From positions 2,081,501 to 2,145,500 of the forward strand of contig NZ_CP010834.1 of assembly GCF_001548675.1 (NCBI RefSeq): a DNA stretch of 64,000 bases, in the 5' to 3' direction. The stretch is from Methanobrevibacter sp. YE315 (lineage in GTDB: Archaea; Methanobacteriota; Methanobacteria; Methanobacteriales; Methanobacteriaceae). The translations under genes were made by a program, and so were the position numbers. Below, piece after piece: positions 4,301-41,241 of this stretch. Under the pieces are notes generated by a model that was not told the origin of the DNA, made no database searches, and worked only from the letters and a program-made list of their open reading frames with translations. The first letter of the stretch is position 1, and each line of letters starts with the position of its first letter.

Positions 4301-7300
4301 GAAAGTAATTGGAGCGGTGTTGTTTTCATATTTAGCATCACCGCTGTAGATTACATCAAAGTTGTATGTACCAGCAGGTAACAATGGAGCATAGATAACT
4401 GCTTTACCGTTAACAAGCTCAGCAGAATAGTCAACACCATCAACAGTAATGTAAACAGTACCAGTAGCATCACTTTCAGATAAGACCACATCAATAGTAG
4501 CGTTTTGATCAACCCTACCAGGGTGTCCTTTAGCTTTAGTGAATTCTATAGCATTCTTCTCAACAGCAAATGAAACACTAGCAACAGCCTCATTGTATTT
4601 CTCATCACCAGCATAGACTACATCAGCAGAATATTCACCAGCAACTAAACCAGGAACAACAATACTTGCAACACCATTCTCAATAGCAGCAGCATAACTA
4701 TTACCATCAACAGTGATGGACACATCACCAGTAACATCCACTTTATCAAATGTTACATTAACGATTACATCATCACCAACAATAACAGACTCTGCAGCAG
4801 CATCCATAGTAGTATTTGCTTTAAATACAGCAAATGAAACACTAGCAACAGCATCATTGTATTTCTCATCACCAGCATAGACTACATCAGCAGAATATTC
4901 ACCAACAACTAAACCAGGAACAACAATAGTAGCAGCACCATTCTCAATAGCAGCAGCATAACTATTACCATCAACAGTGATGGACACATCACCAGTAACA
5001 TCCACTTTATCAAATGTTACATTAACGATTACATCATCACCAACAATAACAGACTCTGCAGCAGCATCCATAGTAACGTTTGCTTTAAATACAGCAAATG
5101 AAACACTAGCAACAGCATCATTGTATTTCTCATCACCAGCATAGACTACATCAGCAGAATATTCACCAACAACTAAACCAGGAACAACAATAGTAGCAGC
5201 ACCATTCTCAATAGCAGCAGCATAACTATTACCATCAACAGTGATGGACACATCACCAGTAACATCATCCCTATCAAATGTTACATTAACGATTACATCA
5301 TCACCAACAATAACAGACTCTGCAGCAGCATCCATAGTAACGTTTGCTTTAAATACAGCAAATGAAACACTAGCAACAGCATCATTGTATTTCTCATCAC
5401 CAGCATAGACTACATCAGCAGAATATTCACCAACAACTAAACCAGGAACAACAATACTTGCAGCACCATTCTCAATAGCAGCAGTATAACTATTACCATC
5501 AACAGTGATGGACACATCACCAGTAACATCATCCCTATCAAATGTTACATTAACGATTACATCATCACCAACAATAACAGACTCTGCAGCAGCATCCATA
5601 GTAACGTTTGCTTTAAATACAGTAAATGAAACACTAGCAACAGCATCATTGTAGTTTCCATCACCAGCATAGACTACATCAGCAGAATATTCACCAGCAA
5701 CTAAACCAGGAACAACAATACTTGCAGCACCGTCTTCAATAGCAGCAGTATAATTATTGCCATCAATAGTGATGGACACATCACCAGTAACATCCACTTT
5801 ATCAAATGTTACATTGACAATTACATCATCATCAACTACCACAGACTCTGCAGCAGCTTCCATAGTAGTGTTTGCTTTAAATACAGTGAATGAAGCATTA
5901 GCATTACTATCTAAGCTGTAAATGCTGTCAGGTGTGAAAGTAGCAGTTACTTCGTAATCTTTAGCAGCTAAACCAGGGATGATTGCACTGCTTTGACCTT
6001 CGGAAGTAATGTTTACTGTGTAATCAGTACCATCAATGGATACAACGATTGTACCAGTTGCTTTAGGATTGAATTCAACATTTACAACAGCATCTTCACC
6101 ATAAGTGATATTTTCTACGGTGATTGCTAAATCAGAGGTAACTGGATAGTTGTTTTCTACAATATTAGTTTCACTAGCAGATTTAACAGCGCTGTCACCT
6201 TTTAACTCACTAGCAATTAATAAGTTATCGGTTACGTTGTTTCCTGTTTTTGTTTTCAAGTCCACAGCATAATCGCCAGTAGTGGTAATGTTGTTTGCTT
6301 TAATTACATTGTCATTTGAGTTAACAGTTACGGTAGCGTTCACATCATTGCCGATGAAAGTAACACCAGCACCACTGATAGTTACTGCACCACCGAAAGT
6401 GTTGTTTTCAACAACAGCATTTTTACCACTGATAGTAGCGGTAGTAGCAATAGTGTTGTCATAAGCAATAGCACCAGCGCCGCTGATAGTAGCGGAAGCA
6501 GCAGTGTTGTTATAAGCAACAGCACTTGCACCAACAGTAATTGCTTTTCCAACAATGTTATCATAAGCGACTGACTCTTTACCAGTAGACAAAGCACCAG
6601 TTACATTGTTATTGTAGATAATTGAACCAGCTTGAGCAGTCAAACCAGAACCATCAGTCATGGTGTTTCCAACATAAGTGTTGTTGTATGGATTTACACC
6701 ACCGAATGAGGTACTGATTGAAGATTTATACAATGTATTGTTTTCAATTAAGTTGTTTTGACCTTCTACCATAAGACCTACAGAAATAGCAGAACCTTCT
6801 TTACCATAAATCCTATTGTTAGTAACTTTGTTGTAATTGTTTAAAGGTACACCACTTGGAGCGCCAGGAATATTGAAGATGTTTAAGTAAATCAAGTTTC
6901 CAACGTTTCCTTCAGCTTTAACAGTACAATTGTCAATAGTACAGTTGGTTGTCCAAGACATTGTGAAAGTGGTTGATCCACCGTTGTTTCTTGTGTACAA
7001 GTAACTGTTTTTAAGGATTACATTGGTTGAATTTTCTCTGATACTGGTTGCTCCTACTCCGGAACCTACTCTTTGGTCTTCAACAACTACACTGATGTTG
7101 TCTAAAACAACATCATGAGTATTTGCAATCCATACTTGAGTGTTGTGGAAGTAGATACCGGTTACATTGGATCCTGAACCACCAGTAGTTACAGCAAAAC
7201 TGTTACCCGGACTTTCACCAAGTAAACTACCCGCAGTAGTGTTCAAGTCAACATAAGCATCATGAGTAGTTGAAATGATGTTTACAGGCTTGTTGACATT

Positions 7301-26179: not shown

Positions 26180-29100
26180 CTATGGGCTGTTGTTTTTAAC
26201 TGTCGCACTACCAGTGAAGCTAACACTTTTATTTCCAGATAATTTTTTAGCATATAAAGTGTTGTAAGTCACTGAAGACTTAGTATTTTTCAAATCAACA
26301 GAATATTTACCTGTAGTATTTACAGTGTTATCCTTGATAGTTGCAACACCGGCAACAACTTTAATACCAATAGTTTCTATACCAAATTCCTCCCAAATGG
26401 ATTCATTACCAATATTAGAACCTTTAGCATTAATATTACAACTATATACAGCTAATTTAGATGCTCTTGAAGCAATACCTGTTGTGTAATTACCCTTAAG
26501 ATCAATATTATTTCCGGAAACCTTGCTTTCAACATCACCAAGGGACATACCGAAAGTGGAGTAAGCTTCAGCATAAATAATATTGTCTATGTAATCGGCT
26601 TTAACATCAGCACCGTTCATACCTGAATAGATACCATAAGCGGAAGTGACACCATAGATATTTAATGTATTGCCACTGATTACACCGGTAGCAGGACCTT
26701 CAACATCAATACCATCTGCATAATAAACATCAGAGACGATATCCAAATTATTATTGGTAATTGTGAAATCATCACCTGAAATTATAATACCATAAATGTA
26801 GGTATGGCCATTGGCTGCAATATCGTTGTTTGAAATCCTAGCATTAGCAGAATTCTTAAAGTCTACAGCATAGATGGTATCATAACTACCGCAAACACCC
26901 TTATAGTTAACGGTGATTAAATTAGCATCGAATTGGATATCATCGGAGTCTTGCACTACAACACCTTCAGAAACAGGGAAGCTTACCCAATTACCAGATC
27001 CTTCAGGAATTTCAGCCCAAGGAACATAACAGGAAACCAACTTAGCTGTTATGGTGTTGCCACTAACAGTTGCTTTTTTAGCATTGGAAATTAAAACCGC
27101 ATTATTTATAGCAGTACCTTTAGTAGCACCAACATACTTAACATTGTTCTTAAGCATGTTCAATTTTTTAACACCTTCAATAGCAATAGCATATGCATCC
27201 TTATCCTTATTTCCAGTGAGTTTAACAACATTACGTGAAACTGCCATATTTCTACCGGAAACAGCAATACCTACACCAGGGCCAGTGATTTTATTATATG
27301 CCAAATTAGCATTACCTGAAACGACTTTAATACCAACGGTTTCAATTCCGAACTCTTCCCAAATGGACTCATTACCAACTTCAGAGGAAGTCATGGTAAT
27401 CTCATTATACTTAGCAGTCAACTTATTAACTTTAGAAGCAATACCAGTAGTATAATTAGCTTTAAGAATAATCTCGTTGTTTAAGATAGTGCTTTCAACA
27501 TCACCAAGACTCATACCGAAAGCAGAATAAGCTTCAGCATAAATTTTGTTTTGAGTATAATTTGCTTTAACGTCAGCACCATTCATACCTGAATAGATAC
27601 CATAAGCAGAAGTGACACCATAAACATTAATAGCATTATTCTCAACTACACCAGTAGCAGGACCTTCAATATCAATACCGTTAGCATAATACACATCAGA
27701 CTCGGAATCAATATTATTACCGGTAACATTGAAATTGTCACCGGAAATGATTAAGCCGTAAATGTAGGAGTGACCTTTAGCATCAATATTATTACCAGAA
27801 ATCACAACATTATCAGAATTCTTGAAATCAACAGCGTAAATAGTATCATAACTACCGCAAACATTAATATATTTAATATTAATTATGTTAGAGTCAAATA
27901 CAAGATTATCAGAATCTGATACTACAACACCTTCAGAAACAGGGAAACTTACCCAATTACCAGATCCAGACGGAATTTCAGCCCAAGGAACATAACAGGA
28001 AACCAAATCAGCCTTGATAGTGTTGCCACTAACAGTTGCTTTTTTAGCATTGGAAATTAAAACCGCATTGTTAATACCAGTACCTTCAGTAGCACCAACA
28101 TACCTAACATTATTTCTAAGCATGTTCAATTTGGTTACTCCATCAACAACAATAGCATAAGCATCTTTATCCTTATTAGCGGTTAATCTGATTACATTAC
28201 GTGAAACCGCCATGCTTTTACCGGAAACAGCAATACCTACACCAGGGCCAGTGATTTTATTATATGCCAAATTAGCATTTCCAGAAACGACTTTAATACC
28301 AACGGTTTCAATTCCGAACTCTTCCCAAATGGACTCATTACCAACTTCAGAGGAAGTCATGGTAATCTCATTATACTTAGCAGTCAACTTATTAACTTTA
28401 GAAGCAATACCAGTAGTATAATTAGCTTTAAGAACGATATCATTGTTTAAGATAGTGCTTTCAACATCACCAAGACTCATACCGAAAGCAGAATAAGCTT
28501 CAGCATTGATGACATTGTCAGTATAGGTAACCTTAACGTCAGCACCATTCATACCAGAGTAAATGCCATAAGCGGAAGTGACAGCGCAAGCTTTGATTGC
28601 ATTAAGCTCAATTACACCAGTGGCAGGACCTTCAATATCAATACCATTAGCATAATACACATCAGACTCGGAATCGATATTATTGCCGGTAACATTGAAA
28701 TTGTCACCGGAAATGATTAAGCCGTAAATGTAGGAGTGACCTTTAGCATCAATAGTATTACCAGAAATCACAACATTGTCAGAATTCTTGAAATCAACAG
28801 CGTAAATAGTATCATAACTACCGCAAACATTATTATATTTAATATTAATTATGTTAGAGTCAAATACAAGATTATCAGAATCTGATACTACAACACCTTC
28901 AGAAACAGGGAAACTTACCCAATTACCAGATCCAGACGGAATTTCAGCCCAAGGAACATAACAGGAAACCAAATCAGCCTTGATAGTGTTGCCACTAACA
29001 GTTGCTTTTTTAGCATTGGAAATTAAAACCGCATTGTTAATACCAGTACCTTCAGTAGCACCAACATACCTAACATTATTTCTAAGCATGTTCAATTTGG

Positions 29101-30592
29101 TTACTCCATCAACAACAATAGCATAAGCATCTTTATCCTTATTAGCGGTTAATCTGATTACATTACGTGAAACCGCCATGCTTTTACCGGAAACAGCAAT
29201 ACCTACACCAGGGCCAGTGATTTTATTATATGCCAAATTAGCATTTCCAGAAACGACTTTAATACCAACGGTTTCAATTCCGAACTCTTCCCAAATGGAC
29301 TCATTACCAACTTCAGAGGAAGTCATGGTAATCTCATTATACTTAGCAGTCAACTTATTAACTTTAGAAGCAATACCAGTAGTATAATTAGCTTTAAGAA
29401 CGATATCATTGTTTAAGATAGTGCTTTCAACATCACCAAGACTCATACCGAAAGCAGAATAAGCTTCAGCATAAATTTTGTTTTCATTATAATTTGCTTT
29501 AACAGCAGCACCGTTCATACCTGAATAGATACCATAAGCGGAAGTGACACCATAAACATTAATGGCATTATTCTCAACTACACCGGTAGCAGGACCTTCA
29601 ATATCAATACCATTAGCATAATACACATCAGACTCTGAATCAATATTATTGCCTGTTATATTGAAGTTATCACCGGAAATAATTAAACCGTAAATGTAGG
29701 AGTGACCTTTAGCATCAATATTATTACCAGAAATCACGGCATTATCAGAATTCTTGAAATCTACAGCATAGATTGTATCATAAGATCCACAAATGTCTGT
29801 ATAAGTAACATTTACATTATTATCCGCAAATTCAACATCATCTGAAGAATCCACAACAATACCTTCAGAAACAGGGAACATCACCCAATTACTGGAACCC
29901 GGCGGAATTTCCATCCAAGGGACATAACTAGAAACTAATTTTAAATTAAATTTGTTTCCATTGATTTGTGCACCGCTGGAATTATAAACACGAATTCCAT
30001 TATTAATACCAGCACCTTGGGTTGTACCGACATAATTAATTTCATTATTAATAAGTTTTATTCCTTTTGAGGAGTCTGCATCTATTGCATAACCATAAGA
30101 ATCAGTTATAGCCTTAAAATTAATAATTGTATTTTCTATTTGAACATCAGATGCATCTAAAATGGAAATAGCGTATTCACCATTATTTTGATTAATAGTA
30201 AAATCAGTGATGATTACATCATCAGATTCAATATCAATAGCAATATTTTCAATTGTAGCATTATTACCGACGAATTTTATTGGACGGTCAACCACAATTG
30301 TATCAACACCAACGCCGGAAATATCTCCTTTAAAAGTCAATTCATTTGAAGTGACATTTGATAACAATGATCCTGTACTATCGAAATAGTTGTAAAAGGT
30401 ATCATTAGTTACGACATTGGCACTATTTACACTTACTACCTGATTATCATCAATAGCAAGAGTTTCAACATCCATTACTCCATCATCTAAAGCAATGACA
30501 TCTGTATTATCATCAGCAGCAAAAGAAGCGCTCAATGACAACATCAAAACACAAAGCATGATGAATGGAATAATAAAACCTTTTGCCTTAAT
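26180..30592 (-). CDS. Adhesin-like beta-helix protein (ALP3) with 966-bp repeats; probable ATT start
   Basis: Secreted protein of about 1470 aa consisting of one long right-handed beta-helix. After the signal peptide comes the TNDTFYNYFD cap also found in ALP1, then four 322-aa units, each with a YVPW.EIP motif and a (V/I)CGSYDTIYAVDF motif, and a short end (residues ending VKNNSP) like the ends of ALP1 helix blocks. There is no Ig-like tail and no anchor. The first ATG in frame (30559) has no SD and would give a signal peptide without its basic region. A GAGGTG SD at 30603-30598 is followed five bases later by ATT (30592), which restores a basic n-region (IKAKGFIIPF). I therefore place the start at this near-cognate codon; that choice is inference. 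Units 2 and 3 are almost identical DNA. Confidence 0.88.
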   Translation of the reverse strand: MKAKGFIIPFIMLCVLMLSLSASFAADDNTDVIALDDGVMDVETLAIDDNQVVSVNSANVVTNDTFYNYFDSTGSLLSNVTSNELTFKGDISGVGVDTIVVDRPIKFVGNNATIENIAIDIESDDVIITDFTINQNNGEYAISILDASDVQIENTIINFKAITDSYGYAIDADSSKGIKLINNEINYVGTTQGAGINNGIRVYNSSGAQINGNKFNLKLVSSYVPWMEIPPGSSNWVMFPVSEGIVVDSSDDVEFADNNVNVTYTDICGSYDTIYAVDFKNSDNAVISGNNIDAKGHSYIYGLIISGDNFNITGNNIDSESDVYYANGIDIEGPATGVVENNAINVYGVTSAYGIYSGMNGAAVKANYNENKIYAEAYSAFGMSLGDVESTILNNDIVLKANYTTGIASKVNKLTAKYNEITMTSSEVGNESIWEEFGIETVGIKVVSGNANLAYNKITGPGVGIAVSGKSMAVSRNVIRLTANKDKDAYAIVVDGVTKLNMLRNNVRYVGATEGTGINNAVLISNAKKATVSGNTIKADLVSCYVPWAEIPSGSGNWVSFPVSEGVVVSDSDNLVFDSNIINIKYNNVCGSYDTIYAVDFKNSDNVVISGNTIDAKGHSYIYGLIISGDNFNVTGNNIDSESDVYYANGIDIEGPATGVIELNAIKACAVTSAYGIYSGMNGADVKVTYTDNVINAEAYSAFGMSLGDVESTILNNDIVLKANYTTGIASKVNKLTAKYNEITMTSSEVGNESIWEEFGIETVGIKVVSGNANLAYNKITGPGVGIAVSGKSMAVSRNVIRLTANKDKDAYAIVVDGVTKLNMLRNNVRYVGATEGTGINNAVLISNAKKATVSGNTIKADLVSCYVPWAEIPSGSGNWVSFPVSEGVVVSDSDNLVFDSNIINIKYINVCGSYDTIYAVDFKNSDNVVISGNNIDAKGHSYIYGLIISGDNFNVTGNNIDSESDVYYANGIDIEGPATGVVENNAINVYGVTSAYGIYSGMNGADVKANYTQNKIYAEAYSAFGMSLGDVESTILNNEIILKANYTTGIASKVNKLTAKYNEITMTSSEVGNESIWEEFGIETVGIKVVSGNANLAYNKITGPGVGIAVSGRNMAVSRNVVKLTGNKDKDAYAIAIEGVKKLNMLKNNVKYVGATKGTAINNAVLISNAKKATVSGNTITAKLVSCYVPWAEIPEGSGNWVSFPVSEGVVVQDSDDIQFDANLITVNYKGVCGSYDTIYAVDFKNSANARISNNDIAANGHTYIYGIIISGDDFTITNNNLDIVSDVYYADGIDVEGPATGVISGNTLNIYGVTSAYGIYSGMNGADVKADYIDNIIYAEAYSTFGMSLGDVESKVSGNNIDLKGNYTTGIASRASKLAVYSCNINAKGSNIGNESIWEEFGIETIGIKVVAGVATIKDNTVNTTGKYSVDLKNTKSSVTYNTLYAKKLSGNKSVSFTGSATVKNNSP
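26270..30130 (-). repeat. Four tandem 966-bp units within ALP3
   Basis: The landmark GGAACATAAC (GGGACATAAC in the last) occurs at 27021, 27987, 28953 and 29919, exactly 966 bp apart each time. The stretches 28081-28505 and 29047-29471 read identically by eye, while the outer units are more diverged. Outer boundaries are approximate. Confidence 0.9.
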
Positions 30593-30847: not shown

Positions 30848-33800
30848 TTATTTAACAACGATTTTATTAGTCACTTGTGTGCCCTTCCATTTTGTAATGA
30901 TTTTGTAGGTGCCTGCAGTATTGAATTTAGCAGTGTATGTTACATAACCATTACTGTCTGTCTTAGCAGTAGAGGATACTCCATTAACAACAAATGTGAT
31001 TACTTTGCCTGCACCAACATATTTTCCATCAGTGCCAACAATACGCACCTTATGTGTTACAGCAGATCCTACACTTGCGGATAAATCCTTGCTACCCTCA
31101 ATCAATGGTTTTACAGTAATTGTCTTAATAGCAGTTGCCACATTATAATTGTTTTGGCCATTGGTGTAGATTTTTATCGAATACACACCATTTGTAACAG
31201 AACTTGGCAAGTAGATATAACCATTTTTATCAGAAACAAGAGAATGCCAATTTTTACCAATTTTAACATCTACTGCTTTATTTTTAATAACAACACCATT
31301 TGAATATTTTATCATGGCTAAAATACCACCAGGCCCAACATAATCAAAAATACTTATTATAACACCTGTGCCTGAAATTACAGACAATTTGGAAGTGGTT
31401 TCAGCATCTTTATAATAAGGCACCTGTTTGACACTTGCGACAACATCATACTCACCTAAATCCAATGCGTTTGTCACATCATAACCAAAAGTAGCCAAAC
31501 CATCTTTATTGGTTGTAGCAGAACCCATAAGAGTCAATCTGCCTACGGAATTTTTCCTGTTAAATTCGACAGTAGCACCTTTAATCGGATTTCCTAATTC
31601 ATCTTTTACAGTTGCAGTGAATTTGGCAGTTTCACCTTGGAATCCTGAAAGTGCAGGAACGGATACGACAAGATTTCCTTTGACTATTGTGGATAAAATG
31701 TCAAATGTAGTAGTTTTGTAATTATTTTTAGTAAATACTCCAGTAAATGTATAAGTAGCAGGAATGTAAGATTCGTCAAATTTATAATCGAAATTAGCTA
31801 CACCATATCTGACTTTTGTATTGGTTATCAAATTACCTTCAATATCATAAACTTTTAGGAATCCACCATTTGCTTGACTACCAAAAGTTACCTCAAAATT
31901 GCCTGTTCCCAAATATGGAACTCTGACATTATTGGTTGTTGGATTGACAACATATTTGTAATTACCAGAGACATTATTGTTTTTAGCATTATTTACAGCT
32001 TTGTCCCCGATTCCTTTTTCAGAATCCAAAAGATTATTTGAAATTACATTATTAACAGCAATAGTGTTTTGAAGTACTGCATATCCTTTTTTAGAATAAA
32101 CTTCATTATCTTCTATGTAGTTATTGCAAGAATTTGATTTGAGATGAATTCCAGCATTTCCAGTGCCGATAGAATCCAGAACAGTGATTGTTAAATCTCT
32201 ACCATCACCATTTGAATTAATCTTATTTGATATAATCCTATTGTTGTTACCATTGCAGAATATGACAGCATAGGTTTGTCTTCCGTTTGCATTAACGACA
32301 TTGTTGGATACTATATTATTGTCAGACATATATCCTTCAATACCGTAAACAGCCTGTCCTTTTATAATGACTGTATTATTATCGATTGTAGAGTTGCTGC
32401 AGGTTTCTAAGTAGATTCCATATACGACAATACCATTATCATCAATTACATTATTTTTGATAATTGTATTCCATGATTCATGACCTACAATAATACCTTC
32501 CTGACAATATGAAGTACAATTGATAGTTATCTTGTTACCGTCAAAGACTGTGTTGGTTGCACCTTGGCCTTCTGGAGCGCTGTGTCCAGTATTATATCCT
32601 AAAACACCCATACCATAAATATAATTATCCTTACCGCTTACGAAAACATTATTGTTGGATAATGTGTTGTTATGGGAGTTAAAGTATACGTCAATTCCAA
32701 CCAAGGAATTAGTTGAAGATGTTGGACTGTATTTTTTAGCCAATTTGGAAGTCACTTTAACATCATTGCCAGAAACATTGTTGTTTGATGAGTATAATAA
32801 TAAAATTCCGTATGTTCTATAAATTTCTGAAACGACATGTGCAGTTCCCATATTATAAGCTTTTCCATCAATACAAAGCTCTCCACCATCTACACAGTAA
32901 GATTTACCATCGATTACAAGCTCATTACCATCAATACAATATCTGGTACCGTCAATGACAATTTCATTGCCGTCAATACAATAAGATTTACCATCAATAG
33001 TTATCTCATTACCATCAATACAGTATCTTTTACCATCGATTACAAGCTCATTACCATCAATACAATATCTAGTGCCCCCGATTACAATCTCATTGCCGTC
33101 AATACAATAAGATTTACCGTCAATAGTTATCTCATTACCATCAATACAGTATCTTTTACCGTCTATAACAACTTCATTACCGTCAATGCATACTTCAGGC
33201 CTAAAGCTATAAACTTCCCCGGTACCACTGGTGGTAATTGTGTTGTTTGCAAAATTACAATCCTCGGAAGCATATGAAAGTAATGTATAAGTTAAATAAT
33301 CACCGTCAGAGCTAAGCTTATTATTAAATACATCCACAAAGGTTGATTCCAAGATATAAATCGCATAAGCCGCTTTTGAATCTTTTACTGAAATATCATT
33401 ATTAACTATTCTGACACCCGGAGCCTGATTTACATAGATACCCCAAGCATTTACCCTATTGGTAGCGTCATTAACTATTTTCAAGTTTTCAATCAAAACA
33501 TTTCCGGAAGTCACCTTAAAGGTGGAATTTGAGAACAATGCATTTTTCTTGTTACTTGTGATTTTGACAGCTTTGTTCACAAGGATGATTTTGTTTTGGA
33601 AATTGCCTCTGAAATCTAAAATATCCCCATCTTTTACCTCGGAAGTCAAACCACCGTTAGCATCGATATATTTAGCATAATTACTGGCAGTGATAACAAA
33701 TGTATTTCCGTTGAAAATGTAACTTGGTTTTGAACCATCATAAACTCCAGCCGGCAAACTGATTAATCCATTGCCGATGATGGTATTGTCCTTAGGACCG

Positions 33801-35176
33801 ATTGTACATGTGTCAGCCTGAACACCACTTACATCTATTGCATATTTATTTCCTGTTTTGATTGTGTTTCCAATAACTGTAACATAGGAAGGCATTCTTT
33901 TTGAACTTAGCTTTTCAACTAAGACTCCGACACCGCTGACTGAAGTAATATTGTTTTTTGTAACATAAAGACCAGCCACTTCCATTTTCTGGTTGATACC
34001 GGAACCATATTCTGTGACAATGACATTATTTTTGATAGTAACATTAGCACCTGGAGCAAAAATACCTCTACCGTCACCGGTTATTGTAACTTTATTATTG
34101 TTTATAATGGTATTGTCAGTACCTGAAATTCCAGCACCTGTATTAATGACTTTAGAGTTGATGATTTCATTACCAACAATCTGTGACTCATAACTACCTA
34201 CAATACCAAATTCTCCACCGGTTACCACATTAAGATTATTGTAATCAGCACCTGTGAGATTAACAATTGTATTGTAAAATATTTTATTAGCAGTACCATC
34301 GGTTGATATTCCTCTATAAGCACCGATTACAGTATTGTATTTAATTGTATTCCTATCACCCATAACCTGAATTCCATAACACCATGATGTAGGGATTACG
34401 TTAATGTGGACTGTGTTTCTCATAATGGTATTGTAATTTGAATTTCCACCCATTGGGGAAGTACCAAAGTTTGATAAATAAATACCGTTTGCATCGTCAG
34501 CTTCAACATTATTGCTTATCAAATTATTGTGGTGAGAACCTGTAACAAGCAATGGAGTAGTTGACCTGGATCCATGACCATAAGTCACCCCATATGCAGT
34601 CAACTCATTGTTTGTTACGTTATTGTAATTGGAGTTGTTGGCTAAACAAATACAATATGCGGCTTCTCCTGTATTTTTAATTACACAATTGCTTATTACA
34701 CAGTTTGAAGCTGAATTTAAAAATATTCCTACAGCCCTTTGACCGTTATTCTGAATATTCAAATTGGATACTGTACTTCCTGAAGCTCCACTAAGCAGAG
34801 TAATCTTTGAATTTTTTAAATTGGATGAGACTCCAATGATATTTAGAGACTTATCAAAAATAAAGTTGCAATCGGAAAAAGCACCACTTAATTTAATAGT
34901 ATCTCCAGGATTTACACCTTCTCTTATAAAATTACCTTCATTATCGAAATTACTTGCATAATTGCTTGAACTGACCGTGTAAGTTTTCGGAGCAGACAAG
35001 ACCACCTCATCCGAACTTTGTTCTAAAACGTTATCGTTATTGTCAGATATCTCCAACGTATCTGAAATAGAATTATCACTACTTAATGTCGTATTTATAT
35101 CATCAGCAGCGCTGACTGCACCAATAGATAATAATATAAGTAGCAATAAAACAAAAATCTTAATCTTTTTGCTCAT
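30848..35176 (-). CDS. Adhesin-like protein (ALP4): beta-helix, Cys 14-mer repeat, Ig-like tail
   Basis: Secreted surface protein of 1442 aa. The signal peptide is MSKKIKIFVLLLL onwards, cut near GAVSAADD. Residues about 70-1070 are NosD-like right-handed beta-helix repeats rich in NN.I..N. These are interrupted at residues 663-774 by eight 14-aa repeats of the type CIDGNEITIDGKSY. Residues about 1090-1442 are Ig-like domains of a different kind (Big_1-like: GNPIKGATVEFN, TNKDGLATF, TDSNGYVTY), probably stalk domains. Start: ATG at 35176 lies 5 nt after a GAGGT SD; an in-frame ATG at 35188 precedes the SD. The gene follows the CobN-like gene on the same strand but has its own 130-nt leader region. 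Ligand unknown. Confidence 0.92.
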   Translation of the reverse strand: MSKKIKIFVLLLLILLSIGAVSAADDINTTLSSDNSISDTLEISDNNDNVLEQSSDEVVLSAPKTYTVSSSNYASNFDNEGNFIREGVNPGDTIKLSGAFSDCNFIFDKSLNIIGVSSNLKNSKITLLSGASGSTVSNLNIQNNGQRAVGIFLNSASNCVISNCVIKNTGEAAYCICLANNSNYNNVTNNELTAYGVTYGHGSRSTTPLLVTGSHHNNLISNNVEADDANGIYLSNFGTSPMGGNSNYNTIMRNTVHINVIPTSWCYGIQVMGDRNTIKYNTVIGAYRGISTDGTANKIFYNTIVNLTGADYNNLNVVTGGEFGIVGSYESQIVGNEIINSKVINTGAGISGTDNTIINNNKVTITGDGRGIFAPGANVTIKNNVIVTEYGSGINQKMEVAGLYVTKNNITSVSGVGVLVEKLSSKRMPSYVTVIGNTIKTGNKYAIDVSGVQADTCTIGPKDNTIIGNGLISLPAGVYDGSKPSYIFNGNTFVITASNYAKYIDANGGLTSEVKDGDILDFRGNFQNKIILVNKAVKITSNKKNALFSNSTFKVTSGNVLIENLKIVNDATNRVNAWGIYVNQAPGVRIVNNDISVKDSKAAYAIYILESTFVDVFNNKLSSDGDYLTYTLLSYASEDCNFANNTITTSGTGEVYSFRPEVCIDGNEVVIDGKRYCIDGNEITIDGKSYCIDGNEIVIGGTRYCIDGNELVIDGKRYCIDGNEITIDGKSYCIDGNEIVIDGTRYCIDGNELVIDGKSYCVDGGELCIDGKAYNMGTAHVVSEIYRTYGILLLYSSNNNVSGNDVKVTSKLAKKYSPTSSTNSLVGIDVYFNSHNNTLSNNNVFVSGKDNYIYGMGVLGYNTGHSAPEGQGATNTVFDGNKITINCTSYCQEGIIVGHESWNTIIKNNVIDDNGIVVYGIYLETCSNSTIDNNTVIIKGQAVYGIEGYMSDNNIVSNNVVNANGRQTYAVIFCNGNNNRIISNKINSNGDGRDLTITVLDSIGTGNAGIHLKSNSCNNYIEDNEVYSKKGYAVLQNTIAVNNVISNNLLDSEKGIGDKAVNNAKNNNVSGNYKYVVNPTTNNVRVPYLGTGNFEVTFGSQANGGFLKVYDIEGNLITNTKVRYGVANFDYKFDESYIPATYTFTGVFTKNNYKTTTFDILSTIVKGNLVVSVPALSGFQGETAKFTATVKDELGNPIKGATVEFNRKNSVGRLTLMGSATTNKDGLATFGYDVTNALDLGEYDVVASVKQVPYYKDAETTSKLSVISGTGVIISIFDYVGPGGILAMIKYSNGVVIKNKAVDVKIGKNWHSLVSDKNGYIYLPSSVTNGVYSIKIYTNGQNNYNVATAIKTITVKPLIEGSKDLSASVGSAVTHKVRIVGTDGKYVGAGKVITFVVNGVSSTAKTDSNGYVTYTAKFNTAGTYKIITKWKGTQVTNKIVVK
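32855..33190 (-). repeat. Eight 42-bp units encoding a Cys-containing 14-mer
   Basis: Exactly 336 bp in frame inside ALP4. Units read CIDGNE, then VV/IT/IV/LV, then I(D/G)G, then KRY/KSY/TRY; the last is CVDGGELCIDGKAY. Units 1-3 and 4-6 repeat the same order of variants (KRY, KSY, TRY), so a 126-bp three-unit block was itself duplicated. Confidence 0.95.
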
Positions 35177-35309
35177 ATTATACCTCATCAAATTGAATTT
35201 ATAAAAATATTTTAAAGTTTAATTAAAATATACTTTAAAAATTTTCTAATATATTATTAGTTTTGATAAAATACAATATTTAAAAATTTCTAAAAAAAGT
35301 AAAAAATAT

Positions 35310-35334
35310 ATGATGACTAACTAGTAATCATCAT
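35310..35334 (-). terminator. Hairpin overlapping the stop of the CobN-like gene
   Basis: A 7-bp stem ATGATGA / TCATCAT spans the stop codon at 35321-35323 and is followed on the minus strand by TATATTTTTTACTTTTTTT. Probable transcription end. Confidence 0.45.
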
Positions 35335-38300
35335 AATCATCATCGTCAGTTTTAGCATATCCAACCAAGAAAATTGCAATTAGAATGATAACTGCAATAA
35401 TTACGAATATAGGCATGCTTGACTCTGTTGGAGCTGCAGCGGATTTGGATGCTGATTTTTGTGAAAGTTCATAGGCTTTAGCACTGGCACTAGCACCAGA
35501 TGAATCCTGTGAAGTTTGAGGGTCTGCAACTTTTGCATCACCTGTTTCACCTTGATCTGCTCCGAAAGCAGTTTTGCCCCCTTCACTTGAACCGTCAGAT
35601 TGTTCCTGAGTGGTTCCATTAACAAGTATCTCTTCGGTTGCATCATCATTTCCATTGTCATTGGCTTCACCTTGACTGTCCCCATTATCATCCATAACGA
35701 ATAGTGGGTTAGTATTTGTAGCCTGAGCAAGAATTTCGGCGAATTTTTGCTTTTGAGCTGCAGTCAAAGAGCTCATTTGAATAAGCTGTGAATTGAAAGC
35801 CAAATTCTTACATGTGTGGTGACAACATGCAACACCATAGTCAATAACATTATCTATATAGGTGTCTACTAATTTCTGAACCCTAGACGCATCAATGTCA
35901 CAGAGTCCTTGTTGAGCCATATAAATTAACCATGCAGTGGAAGATTGTGCACCTGCCGCTGTGGAAGAACCTGTCACTCCGCTGGCGATACCAGTTATTA
36001 CATCCGCCAATTGATTACCTAACTCGCTGTTTAGCTTTTCACCACTTAAAACTTGGGTAACATACATATTCTGATATCTGGCTGCAAGAGAATTACTACC
36101 TGCAGCAGTACCGACTAATGAATTGAAATAATTAGGATTCAACAACATGCTACGAATCTCAAATTCGACTTCTTCATTATAATTTCTTGAAACGTAATTG
36201 TTCTTATTCCTAATATCGACGAATGCAGTGTCTGGTTTATCCTTACCGGATTTTTCCTTCAAGATATTAGCTGCATTATACAATCCACCAAACCAGTCAT
36301 AGTAATCATCAGAGTCAAATAATCTCCATGAACTGTCAAAGTTTTGGGAAATCAAATCAACATTATCAAGTAAATGTTTATAGTTTTCCTTTTGCTTATT
36401 GATAACAATATTGCCTTTTTCATCCAATGTCCAGGAGTAGGATACCTTATTTAGATAGATATCTGATGCAACTTCATTTACAGTGGATATGTTCCAGTCT
36501 GCAGTATTTGGAATGAAAGTGGACATACCAGTTCCTTCCAATACATTACCCGGAAGACCAAACAACCTATCCAACATTGGGTTTTCTGCATAATGTTTTA
36601 TGACATAATTGTTAGTTTCATCTTCGCCGGTAGCATTTAAAGCTAAGTTGACTGAAGTCAACATCCAAGTAATCCAATCCTTATTATTTGTAACCATACT
36701 AGCAAATACGTCAACTCTAGGCCTGTTTACAACACTGCCATTATTCAATTTTACAGTTAGATTTTCTAATGGAAGCTGTTCAACACCTAGAACTTTTCCG
36801 TTATCCGCCCATACTGGTTTACAACCTAATAAATACATGAATTCAGCAACACCAATACCTTCTGTTCTGGAGATTTCTGTACCCCATAAGATTAATGAAG
36901 TCAATTCCGGCCATTTGCCGTGTTTTTCAAAGTAATCTGCTAAAAGCAAATCTACAATTTTAACAGCAGATTCATAAGCCGCATGAGATGGCATCCTTGT
37001 TGGGTCAGAAGCATAACCGTCATAACCAACAGGTATAGAATCACCATAAGACGGGTCAGCGAACAATCCTGCTTTTACATAACGTCCGGATAATGCGAGC
37101 AAAATTGCATTCCATTCATTATTTCTTTGAATGTTTTCAATAATGCTTCGACAATATACTGTTGAATTATATAAAGCAGTGCCTTCTTTAATATCCAATT
37201 CTTTATTTAATTCTTCTACACTAGTTCCATTAACAAGACGGACTGCATAATCTTTCAAGAAGGATTTAATAGCTCTAACTTCATTATCATATTTAAGATT
37301 GCCCTGCAAGTCATCATAGAATTTCAAGCCTTTTAAATCAGGATATAAGAATTCAGTTAATTGATCATAAATCCTAGTTTGGGAAGTAACAATTGTAACG
37401 ACCTCTTCAGAGAGTTCATAACCGGATAAGATTTTACCTATTGTATGGAGACCATACGTATTGAAATCGTCTTCCATAGCATCTAAATAAATGTGTAGTT
37501 CATCTATCCAATCGGAAAAAGATTCATTTTCGGAAAGGTTTCTGAAACCTAACTCCGGAGCTAATTTTAAAATCTTATCCCTGTAAGATTCCGCATTTGA
37601 AGTTACATTAAGACTTAACTGTTCTTTATAGTAATTAATATAATTTTTCAATACAGTATAATTACCGTATAATTCAGATGAAACCATTGCTGGAGTCATG
37701 TGGGTAATTACTAAAGCAGAACTTCTGTCTCTTGCAACCATTGCTTCACCGGGGTTGGATACAATATAAGGATATACAGTAGGGATTAAAGACAATTCAA
37801 AAGTCCAATCTCCAGGGAATGCACCTAAGTTTACACCAGGCAACCACTCCACTGTTCCGTGAGTTCCCATACTAACAATAGCGTTCATATTAGCGGTTTT
37901 TTCCATCCACTCGTAAAATGTCACATATTGCTGGTGTGGAGGAATGGTTAAACTGTGATAATCCTTAACTTCTTCCCAACCTCTACTTGGCTGGAAGGTT
38001 ATGAATACATTACCGAACCAGATTCCAGGGATTACAATATACTTATCTTTATAAACCATTGCAGGGCCTAGGTTATCCCCCCAATAGCTAATCATTTCGT
38101 TATATAATTCATCTCTAACATCAGCAGTCAATTGTTCAAATTCTTTAAGAGAAATCAATTGATGATGTTTCATTAAATAATCCCAATTATCTTCAACATA
38201 TTTTTCAAGCAATCCTGATGCCCAAGACCCTTTGTTGTTCATGTCAAAAATTAAATCGGTTAAATTTTGTAATGTTATTTTATTAATTGTAGTTCCGTTT

Positions 38301-40234
38301 ATCTTAAATCCTTCATTTGAATTTATAATAAACTCATTGTAATCATCAGAATATTCTACAGTTCCGCCAATATCATATCCCTGAGCATATAACTTTAAAA
38401 GCAAATCAAAAGTACTGCTAAATACATCCAAATATGAAGCACCGATTTCTGCCTTACCCGGCGGATAATTATACAACATTATGGAAATATTCTTATCAGA
38501 ATTATTTAAATCATGCAAATCGGCCCATTTACAATTTAATTGCACCATCTTATCGACACCTTCCTGGATAACATGAGTTTTACCATAGACGTCAACATAA
38601 GTTAATGCAACTTGGCCAAAAACACCCTCAAAACTTGGATAAGTAACCATGAATGTCCATTCAGCTTGAGGACCTAAATCACTATTGTAACTGTATTCTG
38701 AAATCTCAACAATACCTTTCAATACATGCAAATCAATGTCAGTTAAATCCGGTTCTGCAGTACCATTAGCGTAATCTAAAGACCAGCTGCATAATGAGTT
38801 TATCGCAGATATGCCTACTGTTGAAATATTATTAATCTTATTTATAATCTCTGACATAGGAGGCTGAGTTCCTGTTTTAAATACGTTAAAAGCAGGTCTG
38901 CCTTTAGCTTCATAGCCTCTAATTAATGCTTCGCTTACTTCTTCACCACCATAGTAAGAAGCTATGGCTATGAATGGCTTATCAGGATGGAACATTTCAA
39001 TATAATCGTGCTCAAATGTTTTAAATAAACCGGTTGGATCCAATTCCTCTGTTAACCAGTCCACATAATTTTCTGTCATCCAATTTAGACTACCATCAGA
39101 ACTATGAGTGTAACCGGGATTTTCATGAATCCATGAATTAATCAATGTTCCGTTAGGTGTTAAACTGTACAAACCTAAATCCGGATGGTAAAATCCACAT
39201 TCAGGAGACATTAAAGGAGCATTATTCTCATCTAAAGTCGGATCAGAATACTTTTGAGGATTAATCAAATAGCAGACATAAGCTAAATAATTCTTCATGT
39301 TACTTATTAGAATATCAGACTCTGCAATATCACGGGCTTGGAAATAAGAACCTATGTACGTATTTTCAATAGTGTCAAAGGTATTGTTTTTTGCAGAAGC
39401 ACCGACAACATGCAAACCGGTATTGTCTAAAATCTGCTTTGAATAAACACTGAATGTATATGCGACATTATACTCGGCATTGGCTGGTGACCTTGCTAAC
39501 AATTCCTTTAAATATTTGGCTGTCAGAACGCTGTATGCGGATTCAGAGAACATGTCAATGTGCATAAACTTTGCATATTCAACTAACCAGGATCTAGATG
39601 TATCAAAATCAGTTGTACTGATAAAAGCAACTCTTCTGGACATATTCATTAATACATCAACCTTCTCATTGTGGGAATTATAATCTACCAATAGCAATAT
39701 GTCGGGAACAAACATTACATCGTCAATATTAACAGTTCCGCTTTTATGAGTAAAATCAATCTCATCCAATTTGATTGGTTCATAAGTTAAATAGCTAACC
39801 TCTAAATAATATTTGCTTGATCCCAAATTTTTAATTGCAACATTACCCTTTGAATCGGTTTTATGTGTTGAAATCAATTTATTTGAAGAGTCGAATACCT
39901 TGACTGTAGCTCCGGCCAGATCAAATCCGTCTTCATCCCAAGTTTTGCCTGTTTCGTTATAAGAGTCAGTTACATGAACATTAATTACATTACTGCCTGC
40001 TGTTAAATTCCCCTCATCTGATTGAGAGCCTATAACTTTTGGAATTAGATGATTCTGCGTCAATCCATCCTGTTCTATTGGAGTACCCACTACATCAGAT
40101 ATTGTTTTACTATCTCCTGCAAATACTCCGTTTACAGAAAATATAAGCAATATAGATATAATTAATGCGAATAATAACCTTTTATTAATTTTTACCGTAT
40201 TTTCACCTCCTTTCAAATTAATCATGTGAAACAT
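35321..40234 (-). CDS. Extracytoplasmic CobN/Mg-chelatase-H-like protein with C-terminal anchor
   Basis: A 1637-aa member of the CobN/ChlH large-subunit chelatase family, which normally inserts Co or Mg into tetrapyrroles. An N-terminal signal peptide (KRLLFALIISILLIF, cut near VFAGD), a carboxypeptidase-regulatory-like beta domain (about residues 75-130) and a C-terminal membrane helix (about 1606-1628) with a KTDDDDYDDY tail place the catalytic domain outside the cytoplasm. Family motifs are present: MGTHGTVEWLPG near residue 790, YPYIVSNPGEAMVARDRSSA, and WGTEISRTEGIGVAEF near 1115. A Ser/Gly/Gln-rich spacer precedes the anchor. The substrate is unknown. Known cytoplasmic members need ATPase partners, which cannot act outside, so removal of metal from a tetrapyrrole, as proposed for HmuS-type homologues, is an alternative. 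The start is uncertain: a strong GGAGGTGA lies downstream of the ATG and points to an ACG at 40198. Confidence 0.85.
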   Translation of the reverse strand: MFHMINLKGGENTVKINKRLLFALIISILLIFSVNGVFAGDSKTISDVVGTPIEQDGLTQNHLIPKVIGSQSDEGNLTAGSNVINVHVTDSYNETGKTWDEDGFDLAGATVKVFDSSNKLISTHKTDSKGNVAIKNLGSSKYYLEVSYLTYEPIKLDEIDFTHKSGTVNIDDVMFVPDILLLVDYNSHNEKVDVLMNMSRRVAFISTTDFDTSRSWLVEYAKFMHIDMFSESAYSVLTAKYLKELLARSPANAEYNVAYTFSVYSKQILDNTGLHVVGASAKNNTFDTIENTYIGSYFQARDIAESDILISNMKNYLAYVCYLINPQKYSDPTLDENNAPLMSPECGFYHPDLGLYSLTPNGTLINSWIHENPGYTHSSDGSLNWMTENYVDWLTEELDPTGLFKTFEHDYIEMFHPDKPFIAIASYYGGEEVSEALIRGYEAKGRPAFNVFKTGTQPPMSEIINKINNISTVGISAINSLCSWSLDYANGTAEPDLTDIDLHVLKGIVEISEYSYNSDLGPQAEWTFMVTYPSFEGVFGQVALTYVDVYGKTHVIQEGVDKMVQLNCKWADLHDLNNSDKNISIMLYNYPPGKAEIGASYLDVFSSTFDLLLKLYAQGYDIGGTVEYSDDYNEFIINSNEGFKINGTTINKITLQNLTDLIFDMNNKGSWASGLLEKYVEDNWDYLMKHHQLISLKEFEQLTADVRDELYNEMISYWGDNLGPAMVYKDKYIVIPGIWFGNVFITFQPSRGWEEVKDYHSLTIPPHQQYVTFYEWMEKTANMNAIVSMGTHGTVEWLPGVNLGAFPGDWTFELSLIPTVYPYIVSNPGEAMVARDRSSALVITHMTPAMVSSELYGNYTVLKNYINYYKEQLSLNVTSNAESYRDKILKLAPELGFRNLSENESFSDWIDELHIYLDAMEDDFNTYGLHTIGKILSGYELSEEVVTIVTSQTRIYDQLTEFLYPDLKGLKFYDDLQGNLKYDNEVRAIKSFLKDYAVRLVNGTSVEELNKELDIKEGTALYNSTVYCRSIIENIQRNNEWNAILLALSGRYVKAGLFADPSYGDSIPVGYDGYASDPTRMPSHAAYESAVKIVDLLLADYFEKHGKWPELTSLILWGTEISRTEGIGVAEFMYLLGCKPVWADNGKVLGVEQLPLENLTVKLNNGSVVNRPRVDVFASMVTNNKDWITWMLTSVNLALNATGEDETNNYVIKHYAENPMLDRLFGLPGNVLEGTGMSTFIPNTADWNISTVNEVASDIYLNKVSYSWTLDEKGNIVINKQKENYKHLLDNVDLISQNFDSSWRLFDSDDYYDWFGGLYNAANILKEKSGKDKPDTAFVDIRNKNNYVSRNYNEEVEFEIRSMLLNPNYFNSLVGTAAGSNSLAARYQNMYVTQVLSGEKLNSELGNQLADVITGIASGVTGSSTAAGAQSSTAWLIYMAQQGLCDIDASRVQKLVDTYIDNVIDYGVACCHHTCKNLAFNSQLIQMSSLTAAQKQKFAEILAQATNTNPLFVMDDNGDSQGEANDNGNDDATEEILVNGTTQEQSDGSSEGGKTAFGADQGETGDAKVADPQTSQDSSGASASAKAYELSQKSASKSAAAPTESSMPIFVIIAVIILIAIFLVGYAKTDDDDYDDY

Positions 40235-40386: not shown

Positions 40387-40395
40387 GTGAGATTG

Positions 40396-41241
40396 ATGCG
40401 CAAGATTAGTATTGGTATGATTATTTTATCAATAATCATTATAGGAATGCTTATCCCGGTAGGCTTTTCAGGTCAAGTCGATCCGGTTGTAATAACCTAC
40501 GGCGAGACCACACATGCAAATCATGAATACAAAGCCACTGTAGATAATTTCTTTAAAACTCAATCAAATGCAGATTTAAGCAAAGCAAACTCAAAAATAA
40601 TAACTGCTGATGACGTGAACAAAATTTCAAGCTCAATAACTGGAAAGACTTACAGTTCAAGCCAAATTTTCTCCTCAGCATTAGTTGACTTAAACGATAA
40701 TGACAAACTGGAAGTTAGTGTTGACAAATCAACAATCACAACAATAACTGGGGATATGTACCTATCAGCATTAAAATCCTCTGGAATTACAAGCGGACAC
40801 GTATATGTAACAAGCCCTGTTGTAGCAACCGGTGAATCAGCTTTAGCCGGAATCATGAATTCATATGAAGTTGCTACCAATGTTGAAATTCCAGATACCG
40901 TGAAAGAAGCAGCTAACAATGAAATTTATACTGAAGCTGAAATCGTTGAAAATTCAAATGTTAGCGCAGATGACTTATCCAAATTAGTGGATGACGTGAA
41001 AGAAACAGTACAAAAAGAAAACGTTACAGACCACACAACAATTGTAAACATAATTTACAATTACACTGTTGTGAACAATATAAATATCACAAACAATGAT
41101 ATTGAAAACCTCGCAAGCTCCATTGAACAAATACAAAACGTTCAAGGAGACATCAACAATTATGAAACAGAAGTAAACAATGTTTTAAACAGCAGCGAGG
41201 TTAACTCTGCAAAAGGACTTTTAGATGGATTATTCGGATAA
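40396..41241 (+). CDS. DUF1002-family secreted protein
   Basis: 281-aa protein resembling the DUF1002 (YpuA-like) family, function unknown. The N-terminal hydrophobic segment (ISIGMIILSIIIIGMLI) is a signal peptide or single anchor. The mature part has the family-like region VVITYGETTHANHEYK, an ITADDVNKISSSITGKTYS stretch and a VTSPVVATGESALAGIM stretch, and ends in a helical Asn/Glu-rich tail. The start is ATG at 40396, five bases after GAGGTGA; an in-frame GTG at 40387 lies within that SD. It diverges from the chelatase-like gene, so a shared extracytoplasmic role is possible but unproven. A T-run after the stop (41255-41262) may end transcription. Confidence 0.8.
   Translation: MRKISIGMIILSIIIIGMLIPVGFSGQVDPVVITYGETTHANHEYKATVDNFFKTQSNADLSKANSKIITADDVNKISSSITGKTYSSSQIFSSALVDLNDNDKLEVSVDKSTITTITGDMYLSALKSSGITSGHVYVTSPVVATGESALAGIMNSYEVATNVEIPDTVKEAANNEIYTEAEIVENSNVSADDLSKLVDDVKETVQKENVTDHTTIVNIIYNYTVVNNINITNNDIENLASSIEQIQNVQGDINNYETEVNNVLNSSEVNSAKGLLDGLFG

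Follow-up and report, generated by a model that had tools for sequence, protein, structure and literature searches.

The analysed window, a stretch of 64,000 nucleotides from Methanobrevibacter sp. YE315 (NZ_CP010834.1, positions 2,081,501 to 2,145,500), encodes an adhesin-like surface protein of 1447 amino acids on the minus strand (30848..35191), as defined by its ORF, its domain matches and Foldseek. The ORF starts with a TTG at position 35191, and the next codon is an ATG. An N-terminal hydrophobic segment, read from the sequence, is followed by a right-handed beta-helix and C-terminal Big-type Ig domains; PF13229 matched with an E-value of 2e-19, and in the copy of the window Big_1 and Big_3_5 fell slightly short of their curated cut-offs. 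When the whole model of aa 501-1000 was compared with the PDB using Foldseek, the matches were right-handed beta-helix proteins. A signal or anchor combined with a right-handed beta-helix and archaeal Big domains is the architecture described for the Methanobrevibacter adhesin-like proteins (ALPs) (PMC11532034, PMC2812497), among which the host protein belongs; however, a search of the paper on ALP domains turned up no mention of metal, disulfide or CobN and no Cys array. The surface location proposed in an earlier note on this DNA is supported. The helix was described there as NosD-like, and the Pfam NosD model (PF05048) indeed matches it; however, TIGR04247 reaches 29.6 bits against a cut-off of 300, and the host protein was rejected as a NosD maturation factor. 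No Nos operon genes were seen among the neighbours of the array gene.

The beta-helix region (32192..33691, minus strand, aa 501-1000 of the AlphaFold model) carries an inserted loop, which is formed by a Cys array of eight contiguous units of 14 codons each (CIDGNEIVIDGKRY; 32855..33190, minus strand, aa 668-779), as determined by Tandem Repeats Finder and by reading the units. Each unit opens with a Cys, and a ninth Cys, aa 773, lies in unit 8, so that the units, the fixed place of the Cys and the extra Cys are exactly as first described. The three-unit order KRY-KSY-TRY is found twice, Tandem Repeats Finder reports a period of 126 bp with 2.4 copies and 89% matches, and units 2 and 5 are identical in 41 of 42 bases; the repeated order and the 126-bp period bear out the suggested expansion by duplication. 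Synonymous differences between the units far exceed nonsynonymous ones (dN/dS ~0.10), and the array is therefore not low-complexity noise; purifying selection is strongest in the C, D and G columns (dN/dS ~0.01). Elsewhere in the window, at 4563-5903, five near-identical (96%) tandem repeats of 264 bp show signs of recent duplication. The claim that the repeat belongs to no named family holds for NCBIfam, where the full host protein matched just NosD and generic beta-helix models, and has to be qualified for Pfam, where PF21300 scores above its cut-off with the 14-mer form only. The repeat is without a named family of its own, on a known kind of protein; no earlier description of the Cys array was found in the papers searched, and nothing in a phage collection matched the region.

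A search of 67 genomes of the genus gave matches in 48, and the same insert site was read in the fetched loci, which yielded about 50 orthologues. The relatives, which include records named M. thaueri, M. millerae, M. cuticularis and M. curvatus, are Methanobrevibacter of the rumen, the gut and termites. A Methanobrevibacter-type gene was also seen on a contig of an Acholeplasmatales genome (L133), probably due to a binning error. The insert is old and conserved throughout the genus. Its flanks are constant: the helix rung that precedes it ends in GTG, and H.V.E[IV][YF]RTYGI follows it. The insert itself holds between one and about 25 Cys. At least one Cys is kept in all of the approximately 50 genus orthologues read, and the proposal thereby passed the test of Cys conservation in homologues that the earlier note had named beforehand. 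The smallest form of the loop is one C-[IL]-D-G beside a rung ending in EI[YF]RTYGI, and L077 and L080 contain a single KCIDGKND. Units are 4, 5, 6, 7 or 14 residues long, for instance (CIDGNELVIDGRSY)n in L034, (CLDGDSA)n in L053, CPEGNTV-type heptads in L056, CVDGSS-type hexads in L059, (CLDGN)n in L069 and (CLDG)11 in L102; in L164 (L164:16292-19900), a (C-x-G-G-T)n array is preceded by HHVGNCTEC, and Asp is mostly replaced by Gly, with the Cys retained. Genome G099 encodes a large heptad array of the ICPDGT/ICADGT type (L104:11576-15400), with 34 Cys in the ORF.

Across 51 loci, 7.9% of the insert residues are Cys, compared with 0.74% in the remainder of the same region. Gly is found at position +3 of 387 of the 389 insert Cys, and Asp or Glu at position +2 of 374 (C-x-[DE]-G); like metallothioneins, the insert is thus a Cys-rich segment with a conserved Cys pattern. 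The spacing between Cys is most often 14 (154 cases) or 7 residues (127), followed by 6 (16), 5 (14), 28 (11) and 4 (10). On a tree built from the flanking sequence with the insert left out, the deep part of which is unsure owing to long branches, the spacing or unit-length class changed at least 15 times, with the class 'u4' lumping L102 together with a CIGQCLGD-type clade. The 14-residue class arose once, by a single change (support 93), and the classes 7, 6 and 5 recur. From the heptad forms of the orthologues it follows that the 14-mer of the window combines two heptads, with every second Cys replaced. The underlying element is a shorter C-x-D-G, of which the 14-mer is the version found in one clade, a point overlooked in the earlier note. 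A minimal loop has been expanded repeatedly to C-x-[DE]-G arrays with a spacing of 4 to 14 residues, and the Cys was kept every time. Since unit length varied and the Cys stayed, selection keeps the Cys rather than a stacked 14-residue coil; most simply read, what counts is the thiol together with the acidic residue next to it, and not the spacing. The idea that 14-residue stacking into a ladder of Cys, Asp and Tyr is the point of the repeat does not agree with unit lengths of 4 to 14 residues in orthologues, and the Tyr and the IDG half-unit are confined to one clade.

The fold of the insert was addressed with an AlphaFold2 run on aa 501-1000 with 30 homologues. The beta-helix was modelled with pLDDT values above 90. 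The insert, with values of 47-63, forms a loop that connects two strands within a single turn of the helix; modelled alone, it reached 50. The structure prediction suggested in the earlier note therefore returned no confident fold of the repeat. Both models contain short strands in the insert with DG turns between them, which makes a beta-meander or beta-roll possible, if unsupported. The insert could in that case be a two-stranded solenoid of 14-residue coils similar to the grass ice-binding protein; this solenoid would act as a stalk, a spacer or a face for binding and be stabilised by a Cys ladder. PF21300 (LbR_Ice_bind), the family of the grass ice-binding beta-roll, shares the 14-residue period and two short strands per unit with the array and scores 40.3 bits in the window and 45.5 bits in L034 (gathering cut-off 30); its structure, PDB 3ult, was matched by sequence with an E-value of 2.9e-6. 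However, the residues differ, with Cys and Asp in the array, and the period varies among array orthologues: units of 4, 5, 6, 7 and 14 residues cannot share one coil geometry, the fixed coil of 14-15 residues is not kept in homologues, and none of the 7- or 4-residue arrays tested matched PF21300. The low pLDDT values also speak against a beta-roll, and the PDB search with the repeat matched unrelated repeat proteins as well, so that these matches reflect period and composition. We consider a beta-roll unlikely. The PDB sequence matches to clostridial toxin repeat regions, which involve IDGK..Y-type repeats and are weak in their individual stretches, were put down to composition, and a match of L104 to DUF6799 (PF20606) was taken as heptad resemblance. 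It is likewise improbable that the arrays arose because a single conserved CIDG loop expanded in tandem, neutrally or by phase variation, with no function for the number of copies. Such an expansion would account for the wide variation in copy number and unit length, even inside clades, and for the three-unit duplication in the window, and slippage alone could explain the arrays that diverge most; however, Cys is present in nearly every unit where other positions drift, dN/dS between the units of the other arrays is 0.04-0.41, and the same motif was arrayed repeatedly and independently.

The array gene is paired with a gene for a surface CobN-like protein, a pairing that had also been overlooked. 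This gene lies directly upstream (35321..40234, minus strand) and encodes a secreted CobN/Mg-chelatase-type protein of 1637 amino acids (PF02514, E 3e-164) with an N-terminal signal or TM segment and, at the other end, a C-terminal TM helix that leads into an acidic tail. It combines the two features of class I chelatases, the CobN-Mg_chel domain and the motif GTHG..E[WF].PG; the conserved chelatase motif (MGTHGTVEWLPG, approximately 37835..37870, minus strand) is intact as GTHG..E[WF]LPG, in the genus in the EWLPG form, in every genus copy scanned. Its relatives in the PDB are ChlH, CobN and HmuS (HmuS 9d26, E 4e-51). The protein is thus homologous to the HmuS/BtuS/CobN/ChlH class I chelatases and has kept their motif; however, it is by prediction membrane-anchored and surface-exposed. 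To our knowledge, the Cys array has no counterpart among these class I chelatases. HmuS strips iron from heme, and archaeal CobN-like sequences, which are mostly found in Methanobacteriota, are of unclear function and not associated with other cob genes (PMC12583661). The homologue in M. ruminantium is annotated as BchH (mru2047), numbered beside the adhesin-like mru2048 and mru2049, and served as a surface antigen candidate (PMC2812497).

The conserved gene order consists of a divergent DUF1002 gene, the CobN-like gene, the array gene and a gene for a second adhesin-like protein. The DUF1002 gene (40387..41241, plus strand), located upstream of the CobN-like gene, is conserved in most genus loci and may belong to the same system. 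The second adhesin-like beta-helix protein (26180..30559, minus strand), encoded by the next gene downstream, lacks a Cys array; it contains three near-identical long beta-helix repeats, and the same order is found in many relatives. In genus loci with both genes on one contig, the CobN-like and the array gene are separated by 73-262 bp, typically 110-180 bp, and a promoter and terminator scan between them revealed nothing resembling a terminator on the coding strand. An alignment of 33 loci upstream of the CobN-like gene, which was poor and gappy, contained no clear conserved block that could represent a regulator site. G059 has a second pair of a CobN-like protein and a Cys-loop adhesin directly upstream of the first (L047:2-2785, L111:7375-12231); this second CobN-like copy is 72% identical to that of the window and has one in-frame stop.

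The CobN-like gene is present in 57 of the 67 genus genomes. Of these genomes, 55 contain both genes, 4 contain a single one of the two and 8 lack both (Fisher p 3e-7). This figure needs discounting because adjacent genes tend to be lost jointly where a genome is fragmented; in G027, G024 and G045, the gene concerned is at or close to a contig end, and G026 has a fragment only. Several cases depart from the pairing: G099, which is 99% complete, encodes two Cys-bearing homologues, one of them with 20 CxDG, and has no match to PF02514; in L092 and L096, the CobN-like gene is 2-2.5 kb away and the loop of the helix homologue is without Cys; and in G085 the Cys-bearing genes are more than 20 kb from CobN. 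The array may therefore have a role of its own, such as a general metal buffer or thiol contact, and may have been joined to the chelatase in the genus.

Conservation of the Cys despite the changed repeat length suggests a metal-binding tail beside a chelatase-related enzyme. We put the probability at about one half that the insert is a flexible array of thiol and acidic groups, which stores metal for a surface chelatase or accepts metal from it. A metal-binding role, already raised in the earlier note, is plausible, and the idea is strengthened and given a partner. The array would be an expanded, probably flexible element exposed on a surface protein of the beta-helix type, and this protein would cooperate with the membrane-anchored CobN-like chelatase, with which we infer physical contact. 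Outside the cell, where conditions are anoxic, the Cys of the array would, together with Asp or Glu, bind a soft divalent metal, perhaps Fe, Co, Ni or Zn. Transfer might run in either direction: the array could receive metal that the CobN-like protein pulls from tetrapyrroles by HmuS-like de-chelation, or it could hold and supply metal for the CobN-like protein. Metallothioneins and phytochelatins bind metal by thiols. The array shares repeated thiol and acidic groups, a variable copy number and, probably, the lack of a fixed fold in the absence of metal with metallothioneins and with phytochelatins, (gamma-Glu-Cys)n-Gly; however, it is made by ribosomes, extracellular, built of spaced C-x-D-G and embedded in a beta-helix, and a sequence relation is not expected.

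Two other uses of the thiols have to be weighed against metal binding. Methanobrevibacter lives in anoxic, reducing habitats, which argues against disulfides as the purpose of the Cys. In disulfide or thiol adhesion, the Cys would cross-link surface proteins to one another, to the chelatase or to foreign partners, and the exposure of the array on the cell surface as well as the tolerance of odd and even numbers of Cys, from one to about 25, would fit such a role; however, disulfides do not need a strict C-x-[DE]-G context, and single-Cys forms are common. This explanation is doubtful. Far less probable still is redox or mineral contact, by which the array would bind FeS or metal-sulfide surfaces for the uptake of metal or sulfur. 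It draws on the response of CobN-like BtuS to the iron and sulfur source in Methanosarcina barkeri, in which two such proteins are up in FeS2 and Fe(II)/Cys media compared to Fe(II)/sulfide (PMC10846266). However, these data are not from Methanobrevibacter, and all inserts together contain 0 CXXCH and 1 CXXC, a count on which a multiheme cytochrome or Fe-S protein was also rejected.

If the array does bind metal, a further, tentative step would be that gut methanogens have a surface system of two parts: a CobN-type (de)chelatase, anchored in the membrane, strips metal from external tetrapyrroles or inserts it into them, and the Cys-array beta-helix protein serves as its tunable metal reservoir; the odds are rather against this full form. 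If true, such a system would represent a hitherto undescribed archaeal mechanism for scavenging metal or tetrapyrroles, and it would give a function to the orphan archaeal CobN-like proteins. The array motif, whose chemistry was kept while its periodicity was remade repeatedly, provides a natural series for metal-binding work, from one to about 25 Cys at spacings of 4-14 residues. The conserved Cys-array partner is a testable lead on the function of the CobN-like proteins, which points to extracellular handling of metal or tetrapyrroles in methane-producing gut archaea.
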